64,000 nucleotides of DNA, taken from the NCBI RefSeq assembly GCF_000427685.1, contig NZ_KE386573.1, positions 2,898,938 to 2,962,937 of the forward strand, written 5' to 3'. Source of the DNA: Haloplanus natans DSM 17983. Lineage in GTDB: Archaea > Halobacteriota > Halobacteria > Halobacteriales > Haloferacaceae. This document shows, in pieces, positions 2,706 through 41,014 of the stretch; within the stretch, counting starts at the first letter, position 1; each line of letters starts with the position of its first letter. The notes beneath the pieces were generated by a model, which saw only the letters and a list, made by a program, of their open reading frames with translations, was not told the DNA's origin and did no database searches. The position numbers and the translations under genes are program-made.

Positions 2706-3761
2706 ATGCGCCCCGACCCGCTCTACGCCCGGTATCCGTTCTTCGGCGCCGCCCGCGAGGCGGTCCAGCGGGCGGACATCTCCCCACCCCGGCTGGTCAC
2801 CGAGGGCGACCCCGCCGTCGAGCGCGCCCGCGAACGCGTCGAGCGCGCGCTCATGTCCGGGACGGTGGCGTCGGAGACGCCCGGGCGCTGGAGCGACCGC
2901 GACGAACTCCTCTCGTATCCCATCGCGCGCATCCTCGTCTCGCTGGTCGACGTGCGCGCCGCGGTCGAGAAGTACGCCGAGGCCGAGGCCGAGACGGCGT
3001 TCGCGCGCCTTCGCGAGGACTTCGACGCCGGCGACGCGGAACTGCGCAGCGTCTCGACGCCCCGTGCCGACCTCGAAACCGTCCTCGACGAGTTCGACCT
3101 CGACGGGGCGGTACGGCGGGTCGAGGATGGCCCGAACCGCGCCGGCTTCCGGATCGACGTGACCGCGTATCTCCGGCTGGCCGATCCCGACTGGGGCGAC
3201 GGCTGGCGGCTCGTCAACCGTGACCTCGCCGACGGCGCGGTGCCGATCGCCGGCGACGAACTCCGCCGCCTGCTCCGGGAGGCCGTCCGCCGCCGGGTCG
3301 CCGACGGCCTTCCGTTCGAGGTGCGGGGGAGCGCCGGCGGCGACGCCATCGCCGAGGCCCTGAGCGAGGACGTGGCGGCCCTGCGTGACCGCCTCGCTGA
3401 GCGCGAGCGGCTGCCGGACGTCGAGGCCGTGATCCCGGCGCAGTTCCCGCCGTGTATGCGGGCGTTGCTCGATAGGGAGGAGGACCTCGCCCCACACGCC
3501 GCCTTCGCGGCGACCGCCTTCCTCGTCTCGCTCGGACTCGACGCCGACGCCATCGCGGAGCGATGGCCCGCACTCGACGACGGCTCCCTCTCCTACCGAA
3601 CGACGGTGCTCGCGGACGCGAACGGGAGCCAGTACCCCGCGCCCTCGTGTGCGACGATGCAGGCGTTCGGCGACTGCGTGAACCCGGACGAGCGCTGTGA
3701 GACCATCGATCACCCGCTGCGGTACTACGCGGCGGCGGTCGCGGACGTCGACGCCGACTAG
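2706..3761 (+). CDS. priL: DNA primase large subunit PriL
   Basis: Non-catalytic, iron-sulfur subunit of archaeal/eukaryotic-type primase; with PriS it makes the RNA-DNA primers for replication. The 351-residue protein has the C-terminal Fe-S domain with four cysteines expected to bind one [4Fe-4S] cluster: one in PPCMRALL (near residue 252), then CATMQAFGDC and a final Cys in ERCETID. The helical N-terminal domain is rich in Arg and Glu. The start at 2706 (MRPDPLYARYPFF) matches the family beginning. PriS is not encoded nearby. Confidence 0.93.
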   Translation: MRPDPLYARYPFFGAAREAVQRADISPPRLVTEGDPAVERARERVERALMSGTVASETPGRWSDRDELLSYPIARILVSLVDVRAAVEKYAEAEAETAFARLREDFDAGDAELRSVSTPRADLETVLDEFDLDGAVRRVEDGPNRAGFRIDVTAYLRLADPDWGDGWRLVNRDLADGAVPIAGDELRRLLREAVRRRVADGLPFEVRGSAGGDAIAEALSEDVAALRDRLAERERLPDVEAVIPAQFPPCMRALLDREEDLAPHAAFAATAFLVSLGLDADAIAERWPALDDGSLSYRTTVLADANGSQYPAPSCATMQAFGDCVNPDERCETIDHPLRYYAAAVADVDAD

Positions 3762-39323: not shown

Positions 39324-39644
39324 TCACGGCATGAAAAGGGGGAGGGAGAGGGCAACGAGCACCGCGGCCCCGACCAGCGCGGCGTAGAACAGCCCCTCGA
39401 TGCGCTGTCCGGCCGGGAGTTCGCCGCGGAGTTCCGGCCGGGCGGTGTAGACGAGACGGTGATACGCCACGCCGACGGCGGCGAGACAGGCGACGGTCGG
39501 CAGGCCGAACACCGCCGGCCCCGACAGGCCGATAGTGATGGCGTAGACGGGGCCGAACGAGTAACAGACGAGGACGGCCATCGACGCCACAACGAGGAAG
39601 GGCACGGCGTCGACGGCGGTTCCGTCTCGGTTCCGGAGGGGCAT
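39324..39644 (-). CDS. Haloarchaeal membrane protein, three TM segments
   Basis: A 106-residue hydrophobic protein with helices at about residues 15-37, 43-61 and 84-105, and a polar loop YTARPELRGELPAGQRIEG between the second and third. It lies 14 nt upstream of the SRPBCC gene on the same strand, likely in one operon. Function unknown. Confidence 0.72.
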   Translation of the reverse strand: MPLRNRDGTAVDAVPFLVVASMAVLVCYSFGPVYAITIGLSGPAVFGLPTVACLAAVGVAYHRLVYTARPELRGELPAGQRIEGLFYAALVGAAVLVALSLPLFMP

Positions 39645-39724
39645 AGGTGGCGTATACGCCTGCGTGGTGAAAACTCGCGCGGCGCGACGGAAGGTTCAGG
39701 GGCGTCCGCCGACTCCCTCCAGCC

Positions 39725-40327
39725 ATGCCCACGGTTCGCGCCGAGGTGGTCGGCGAAGGCGTCGAAACGGTCGCCCTCGACGCCGACGCCACCTACGGCG
39801 ACCTGCTCGTCGCCCTCGAGTTCAGCCCCCACGAGGCGACGGTCCTCGTCGACGACCGGCCGGTACCGGAGGATCGATCGGTCGACGCCGACCGGGTGCG
39901 CGTCCTCCGGTTGGTGAAGGGAGGGGCGCTCGACGAGCGGGCGATCCGGGTTCGCCGCGCCGACGCCGCCGACCTCCTCGACGTGCTGCGGATTCTCGAC
40001 GGCGCGATGCTCGAAACCGACGCCGATCGGGTGTCCGAACGCATCGAAGCGGGGTCGGTGCTGGTGGCGACGGTCTTGGAAGACGGCGAAGTCGTCGGTG
40101 TCCCCGTCGGCGCCCTCGTCCGCGACGGCGACCGCGTGACCGCGGTGGCGACCCGCCGGCGCCACCGCGACCGGGGCGTCGGGAGCGCCCTCGTCCGGGC
40201 CGCGCTGGCGGGTCGGGATCACCTCGTCGCCGAGTTCGACCCCTGCGTGCGGCCGTTCTACGAGTCCCTGGGGTTCGATATCGAAGCGGCCGGGGACGGT
40301 CGTCTCCGTGGCCGGTTAGAGGGGTAG
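39725..40327 (+). CDS. SAMP2-like ubiquitin-fold domain fused to a GNAT acetyltransferase
   Basis: One 200-residue ORF with two parts. Residues 1-67 closely resemble, from memory, haloarchaeal SAMP2, a ubiquitin-like modifier and sulfur carrier: a beta-grasp pattern with FSPHEATVLVDDRPVPEDRS, ending RVRVLRLVKGG. SAMP2 normally stops at that Gly-Gly. Here the frame runs on without a stop into a full GNAT acetyltransferase (about residues 73-200), whose acetyl-CoA loop is RRRHRDRGVGSALV. Exposing the Gly-Gly would need proteolysis, as for ubiquitin precursors. Start MPTVRAEVV at 39725; the 3' end overlaps the convergent membrane-protein gene by 12 nt. Confidence 0.85.
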   Translation: MPTVRAEVVGEGVETVALDADATYGDLLVALEFSPHEATVLVDDRPVPEDRSVDADRVRVLRLVKGGALDERAIRVRRADAADLLDVLRILDGAMLETDADRVSERIEAGSVLVATVLEDGEVVGVPVGALVRDGDRVTAVATRRRHRDRGVGSALVRAALAGRDHLVAEFDPCVRPFYESLGFDIEAAGDGRLRGRLEG

Positions 40328-41014
40328 TCGCCGCGAGACGGCGATCCCCACCTCGTCCGCCCAGTAGAGGAGCGCGATGGTGAGAAGAAAGACGAGCGTC
40401 GAGAGATCCCAGGACAGCCCCGTCAGCGTCGACCCGAAGAGGGTGGTGGCGCCGAGGATGGGGAGGAGAATGGAGAACGTACAGCCGACACAGGAGACCA
40501 GACCGAGGACGCCGGAGAGCACCGCCCGCGTCGCGTCGAGCAGGCGGGCGTAGACGAGGTAGGTCATGGCGAGGTAGCCGACGAATTTGAACGGGACGAC
40601 GGCGAGCCGAACCCGCGGCGTGCCGTAGACGACCGACGGCCCCCAGCCGGGGATGTTCCAGTGAATCGACGAGACGGCGCCGCCCGGGAGGGGCCCCGGA
40701 ATGCCGAGAAGGAGGATGCCACCGGCCCACGAGAGCAGGAGGAAGTAGCCGGCAGCGAGGGCACGCGCGACCCAGCGCTTGCGACCGTCGACGCTCGGGA
40801 GGCCGGTCCGAATCATCGCCCACAGACCGACGTTGATCCAGACGAACGGGTAGACGACGTAGCGTGGTTCGGTGATGATAACGCCCGTGACCACGATATA
40901 CGCCGTCACGAGGGCGAGTTCGGCGGCGACGACGAGGCTCCACCACCGGATCGCCCGCGTCTCCGCGAGGAGGAGACGGCGCACCCGGTCGAGCGGGTCG
41001 TAGGCTTCGCTCAC
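40316..41014 (-). CDS. Haloarchaeal membrane protein with a CxxC in a helix
   Basis: A 232-residue membrane protein with about six TM helices and a GTG start (MSEAYDPLDRVRRLLLAET). The segment LVSCVGCTFSILLPILGA places a CVGC pair within or at the edge of a helix, a pattern that can bind copper or haem or act in thiol redox. It resembles, from memory, membrane proteins linked to terminal oxidases, but no oxidase gene is nearby. The stop overlaps that of the SAMP2-GNAT gene. Confidence 0.75.
   Translation of the reverse strand: MSEAYDPLDRVRRLLLAETRAIRWWSLVVAAELALVTAYIVVTGVIITEPRYVVYPFVWINVGLWAMIRTGLPSVDGRKRWVARALAAGYFLLLSWAGGILLLGIPGPLPGGAVSSIHWNIPGWGPSVVYGTPRVRLAVVPFKFVGYLAMTYLVYARLLDATRAVLSGVLGLVSCVGCTFSILLPILGATTLFGSTLTGLSWDLSTLVFLLTIALLYWADEVGIAVSRRLPL

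Follow-up and report, generated by a model that had tools for sequence, protein, structure and literature searches.

An in-frame fusion of SAMP2 to a GNAT acetyltransferase in all sampled Haloplanus genomes, a probable cleavable modifier precursor

The window analyzed here is a stretch of 64,000 nucleotides from the genome of Haloplanus natans DSM 17983. Within it, a 200-residue open reading frame with an ATG start (39725-40327, plus strand) encodes the small modifier SAMP2 followed in the same frame by a GNAT acetyltransferase, with no stop after residue 67 (Table 1). The 5' neighbor (39324-39644, minus strand) is divergent from the fusion gene, and the 3' neighbor (40316-41014, minus strand, DUF7546) is convergent with it and overlaps it by 12 bases, an arrangement that suggests a gene standing on its own. 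Judging from the conserved upstream element, it appears to have its own promoter and is possibly leaderless. Long open reading frames also run in other frames, as is usual in GC-rich haloarchaeal DNA, but it is the SAMP2-GNAT frame, the only one scanned against the family libraries, that matches curated families, and a reverse-strand or overlapping alternative was rejected.

Table 1. Features of the SAMP2-GNAT gene (positions in the window) and loci of the peroxiredoxin fusions.
Feature	Position	Strand	Basis or remark
Promoter-like element CGGAAGGTTCAGG	39688..39700	+	25-37 nt 5' of the ATG; kept across 12 fused loci; function assigned from position only
SAMP2 beta-grasp domain, residues 1-67	39725..39925	+	NF041919, PF21965, PDB 4hrs/2l32, AF2 model
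SAMP2 tail LRLVKGG	39905..39925	+	Gly-Gly codons 39920-39925; predicted cleavage site after residue 67
Linker, residues 68-73	39926..39943	+	Hypervariable between species in length and sequence (alignment of 12 fusions)
GNAT N-acetyltransferase domain, residues 74-200 and stop codon	39944..40327	+	PF13508/PF13673/PF00583; Foldseek; arCOG04721 via published neighborhood
Acetyl-CoA-binding motif RDRGVG (R/Q-x-x-G-x-G), residues 148-153	40166..40183	+	Sequence
SAMP2-AhpC loci			L215, L221, L230, L255, L256, L257, L283 (g32); L205, L287, L290 (g4); L259 (g18); L292 (g20)

Residues 4-67 match the SAMP2 families of both NCBIfam (NF041919, 93.5 bits against a cut-off of 70) and Pfam (PF21965, 82.8 bits against a cut-off of 27), and the domain aligns from end to end, including the KGG, with two structures of Haloferax SAMP2 (4hrs and 2l32). 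This motif occupies residues 65-67 and closes the beta-grasp domain, the first half of the protein ending in VLRLVKGG. An AF2 model computed from a nine-row alignment contains two confident domains (mean pLDDT 87.7, with values of about 82-94 for most of the SAMP2 domain) with a single disordered stretch between them (residues 65-69, pLDDT below 50). A second, stand-alone SAMP2, which the preliminary description had considered, was searched for in the H. natans genome, and none scored above the cut-off; the sole other match, L003, falls below it with an E-value of 0.18. The SAMP2 domain holds a single lysine, K65 of the KGG, in 12 of 12 fusions.

In the second half, residues 101-185 score above the curated cut-offs of PF13508, PF13673 and PF00583, and both glycines of the acetyl-CoA-binding motif are kept in the 12 fusions. 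By family, fold and motif, the C-terminal domain is a GNAT acetyltransferase with predicted activity. The top Foldseek match is the archaeal Ard1 (4pv6, E 5e-7), the nearest folds are generic GNATs and N-terminal acetyltransferases, and a sequence search of the PDB with the GNAT domain returned no close relative; we therefore claim no substrate for it.

The fusion occurs in all 12 Haloplanus genomes, each time with a match that covers the whole query and contains no internal stop. An open junction that recurs in 12 of 12 genomes is due neither to chance nor to sequencing error, and the agreement of 12 separate assemblies speaks against an assembly error. Together with the curated-family matches, this confirms the preliminary description of a SAMP2 that continues in frame into GNAT, and a stop codon overlooked after the Gly-Gly is likewise dismissed. 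It would be a further possibility that the stop codon was lost neutrally and that translation itself yields free products, through internal initiation or some other effect. In-frame GTG codons do lie close to the junction in some species, but the 12 fusions have no start codon in common there, which speaks against an internal start as the source of a free GNAT, and the SAMP2 C terminus would stay blocked anyway. An explanation of this kind, or one by misassembly, is extremely improbable.

Beyond the genus, the search covered 391 Halobacteria genomes from 86 genera and yielded the best matches, among which none outside Haloplanus runs uninterrupted over both domains. The non-Haloplanus matches listed that span both domains contain one stop each, and where the sequence was inspected, the stop in the unfused pairs lies at the GG or a few codons away. 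Of the fused and split forms weighed in the preliminary description, the fused form thus holds in all 12 Haloplanus genomes, whereas elsewhere in Halobacteria a stop usually separates samp2 from the gnat gene next to it. The order samp2-gnat is that of the published Halobacteria neighborhood arCOG00535-arCOG04721 (PMC2948915). These are the very two genes that are fused in Haloplanus, but in the accessible portion of that publication they appear as separate genes, with no mention of a fusion. Loss of the stop codon in the Haloplanus ancestor is the simplest account of SAMP2-GNAT. A search with NF041919 gave no SAMP2 match in the haloarchaeal genomes G014, G313, G316 (g3), G345, G187, G299, G309 and G315; losses, gaps or divergence are possible reasons. 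Contig 1 of G263 carries two SAMP2 matches of equal score near its opposite ends (3326-3541 and 3939603-3939818), reflecting either a true duplication or the overlap of an unclosed circle.

SAMP2 was further compared over 226 distinct loci, an uneven sample drawn partly from best matches. A stop follows the GG directly in 144 of these loci, 1-12 residues extend past it in 58, and 24 encode SAMP2 joined to a whole enzyme, which is a GNAT in the 12 Haloplanus loci and an AhpC/TSA peroxiredoxin-like protein in the other 12 (PF00578 above cut-off in four of the four tested). The KGG is intact in all 24 enzyme fusions. Those with AhpC span four genera, with seven of eight genomes of g32 (from another family), all three of g4, and one genome each of g18 and g20, and the unfused order samp2-ahpC-gnat is common in other genomes. 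In a tree of SAMP2 plus AhpC, g4 groups with g20, while g32 and g18 stand apart, giving at least three separate groups; counting Haloplanus, there were probably at least four independent fusion events. The unfused G273 of g32 is nested among fused g32 genomes in this tree, with weak support. In 64 of the 82 extended or fused cases, the P1' residue is small (Ala, Ser, Thr or Gly). The MoaD-type Ubls of Haloplanus also extend past their GG, in 23 of 30 loci inspected. Taken together, the SAMP2 tails, the fusions and the MoaD-type extensions suggest that a maturation step after GG is a general need.

The tails themselves vary in character. Several g2 genomes carry a variable ATDGDA-type repeat (e.g., L165, L171, L174, L176, L184 and L193), and the tails of L161 and L195 end in GG again (TGG and RGG). 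Among the MoaD/ThiS-type loci L094-L123 of Haloplanus, the SAMP1-like Ubls ending in PPVSGG or PPVAGG often have 1-5 residues after the GG, and L121, a MoaD/ThiS-type Ubl of H. natans, has an Arg-rich tail of 21 residues.

To compare constraint along the fusion, changes were counted over all pairs of the 12 sequences. Expressed as pN/pS, here uncorrected difference proportions from a small sample and short regions, constraint is strongest in the tail (0.083 for residues 60-67) and nearly absent directly after the Gly-Gly (0.84 for residues 68-74), a large difference, with SAMP2 residues 1-59 at 0.45 and the GNAT domain at 0.46. The tail follows the consensus (V/I)LRL(V/L)KGG, and both of its glycines are invariant in 12 of 12 fusions despite varying codons. 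A conserved tail with synonymous codon turnover beside a free linker fits a Gly-Gly that is used and exposed rather than a fossil.

These values also bear on a fixed ubiquitin-fold/acetyltransferase enzyme, the other option raised in the preliminary description. Such a protein would remain uncut, the SAMP2 fold serving to target or regulate the acetyltransferase while other Ubls take over the functions of SAMP2. The similar constraint on SAMP2 and GNAT (pN/pS about 0.45) is consistent with this, as are the 3-6 ThiS/MoaD-family matches encoded by each Haloplanus genome. So is the arginine that all 12 fusions carry at the position of the chain-forming lysine K58 of Haloferax SAMP2, a replacement that should make K58-type SAMP2 chains impossible in Haloplanus. 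However, an unused tail should decay like the adjoining linker, yet it is the most constrained part of the protein; other genera fuse SAMP2, with its GG unchanged, to the unrelated peroxiredoxin; and JAMM has been retained, as have UbaA and a PP-loop protein resembling NcsA. We thus disfavor the fixed enzyme and regard it as unlikely. Several other Haloplanus Ubls might cover some SAMP2 roles, which counts against the precursor reading.

Putative machinery for the maturation and activation of a SAMP is encoded in Haloplanus. A JAMM protein (PF14464) scores above the cut-off in 12 of 12 Haloplanus genomes and in 12 of 12 SAMP2-AhpC genomes, with the active-site motif HxHP...S..D present in the Haloplanus copies inspected, and a ThiF/UbaA (E1) homologue is found in 12 of 12 Haloplanus genomes. 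The H. natans genome further encodes one PP-loop ATPase with an NcsA-type domain and two JAMM homologues with the JAMM motif, L076 (G000:C7:304350) and L082. Judging from the motif rather than from a direct alignment to HvJAMM1, L076 looks to be of the HvJAMM1 type and L082 of a second type. Because JAMM is also present in fusion-free haloarchaea such as Haloferax volcanii, its presence does not discriminate between the explanations. In two Haloplanus genomes, a long frame outside the largest contig combines ThiF (E1) with a JAMM of the HYHPG type (L081 and L083; G413 contig 1 and G233 contig 3), a layout that resembles the E1-JAMM fusions of bacterial Ubl operons.

Published systems provide precedents for cleavage at such a junction. 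In vitro, HvJAMM1 cleaves a linear SAMP1-MoaE fusion precisely behind the C-terminal Gly. Cleavage of this fusion also occurs in vivo and restores activity, and it goes undetected once the GG has been deleted (PMC4443979). CsJAMM cleaves SAMP precursors of Caldiarchaeum subterraneum (PMC6043591), and MoaX of M. tuberculosis is cleaved at its Gly-Gly, which is required for function (PMC4326299). By analogy with these three cases, SAMP2-GNAT would be cut after Gly67; in the literature found, the documented cleavage of a linear SAMP fusion concerns SAMP1 only, not SAMP2. Furthermore, growth of Haloferax at 50 C requires SAMP2 and NcsA (PMC4048286), which suggests a considerable cost when SAMP2 no longer functions.

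Taking these observations together, SAMP2-GNAT is most probably a cleavable N-terminal fusion precursor, in which GNAT forms the C-terminal "tail" and a JAMM-type protease matures SAMP2 after the GG. This reading, offered first in the preliminary description, is well supported by comparison: by the invariant GG beside a free linker, the second fusion partner, the short tails, the presence of JAMM and E1, and the published linear-SAMP precedent. In the proposed sequence of events, the stop between the adjacent samp2 and gnat genes would have been lost in the Haloplanus ancestor, and a JAMM/MPN+ metalloprotease, most likely of the HvJAMM1 type, would cut after Gly67. The cut would free a SAMP2 with an exposed Gly-Gly end, which UbaA would activate by adenylation and thiocarboxylation for use in protein conjugation and, together with NcsA, in tRNA thiolation. 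The same cut would release the GNAT as a protein of about 133 residues with Ala first, and both products are predicted to be active.

A variant of this scheme would be partial or regulated cleavage, with a role of its own for the uncut form, for example because SAMP2 brings GNAT to UbaA or NcsA complexes or because the cut switches GNAT. GNAT is fused to samp2 or lies no more than 1.3 kb downstream in 179 of the 226 loci, a neighborhood that is also published (PMC2948915) and hints at a functional link, and the SAMP1-MoaE linkage has been described as an on/off switch (PMC4443979). The linker, in contrast, varies too much for a conserved arrangement of the domains, and we consider regulated cleavage very unlikely. 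The link between SAMP modification and acetylation suggested in the preliminary description is likewise not established: in most haloarchaea GNAT is merely the gene after samp2, and SAMP2 is joined to peroxiredoxin where that gene is the first to follow. GNAT may be only the next gene, and the change of partner with gene order speaks for a lost stop and a tolerant protease as the origin of the fusion, rather than any special chemistry between SAMP2 and GNAT. In Haloferax, sampylation and acetylation sites overlap, and the authors of that acetylome study did not detect SAMPs in it (PMC10294847). Given these shared sites and the wide samp2-gnat neighborhood, the two modifications may still be linked in function.

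As a probable cleavable precursor, SAMP2-GNAT can be compared with several known systems. Its domain resembles Haloferax volcanii SAMP2 (HVO_0202, NF041919/PF21965; a ThiS-like, Urm1-type Ubl) in its full-length domain match, KGG tail, single copy, and UbaA and PP-loop NcsA-like partners. The Haloferax protein, however, is a free protein of 66 residues, whereas the C terminus in Haloplanus is blocked by GNAT, so that cutting would be needed before activation by the E1. Linear Ubl-MoaE fusions (the SAMP1-MoaE construct and M. tuberculosis MoaX, cut at Gly82/Ser83) share the N-terminal Ubl, the Gly-Gly at the join and a C-terminal enzyme, and their activity needs a cut for which we predict a counterpart in SAMP2-GNAT. 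Their partner works with the Ubl, as its co-subunit, in molybdopterin synthesis, whereas GNAT in Haloplanus and AhpC/TSA in the other genera have no known reaction in common with SAMP2. The C. subterraneum precursors (CsUb-pre, cut by CsRpn11, and the SAMP precursors, cut by CsJAMM) also carry residues after the Gly-Gly, whose removal by JAMM is predicted here too, but CsUb has a nine-residue tail and no whole enzyme.

Eukaryotic ubiquitin arises as fusions that require cleavage, and SAMP2-GNAT has the layout of such a Ubl-fusion precursor, with an N-terminal Ubl whose Gly-Gly falls precisely on the junction and a frame uninterrupted by stops. The ubiquitin-ribosomal fusions likewise combine an N-terminal small modifier with a folded cargo after the Gly-Gly, the cargo varying by gene or lineage. 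They differ in their ribosomal cargo, in their processing by cysteine DUBs where a JAMM protease is expected here, and in their independent origin. SAMP precursors and naturally occurring Ubl-MoaE fusions have been described before. A literature search that took in few of the subscription papers turned up neither SAMP2-GNAT nor SAMP2-AhpC fusions, no account of SAMP2 tails as a general haloarchaeal feature, and no paper on Haloplanus SAMP2.

These comparisons allow a broader proposal, which we hold tentatively and with slightly more doubt than conviction, that haloarchaea repeatedly evolved a ubiquitin-style fusion of their modifier with an enzyme of stress response or metabolism. The supply of SAMP2 would be tied 1:1 to that of an acetyltransferase in Haloplanus and of a peroxiredoxin in other genera, with cleavage by JAMM controlling both products simultaneously. 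The peroxiredoxin is of interest as a partner because yeast Urm1, as well as Sulfolobus Urm1 placed in yeast, conjugates to the peroxiredoxin Ahp1 (PMC12645042), which the fusion would echo if the proposal is true. In its fusion architecture, the Urm1-like archaeal modifier parallels ubiquitin, with two different cargo enzymes and, inside a single class, a gradation from no tail through a few residues to an entire enzyme, and the genes for peroxiredoxin and acetyltransferase are indicated as old companions of SAMP2. Haloplanus, finally, offers a natural single-copy test of whether archaeal JAMM proteases are required for the maturation of SAMPs, beyond their removal from targets.
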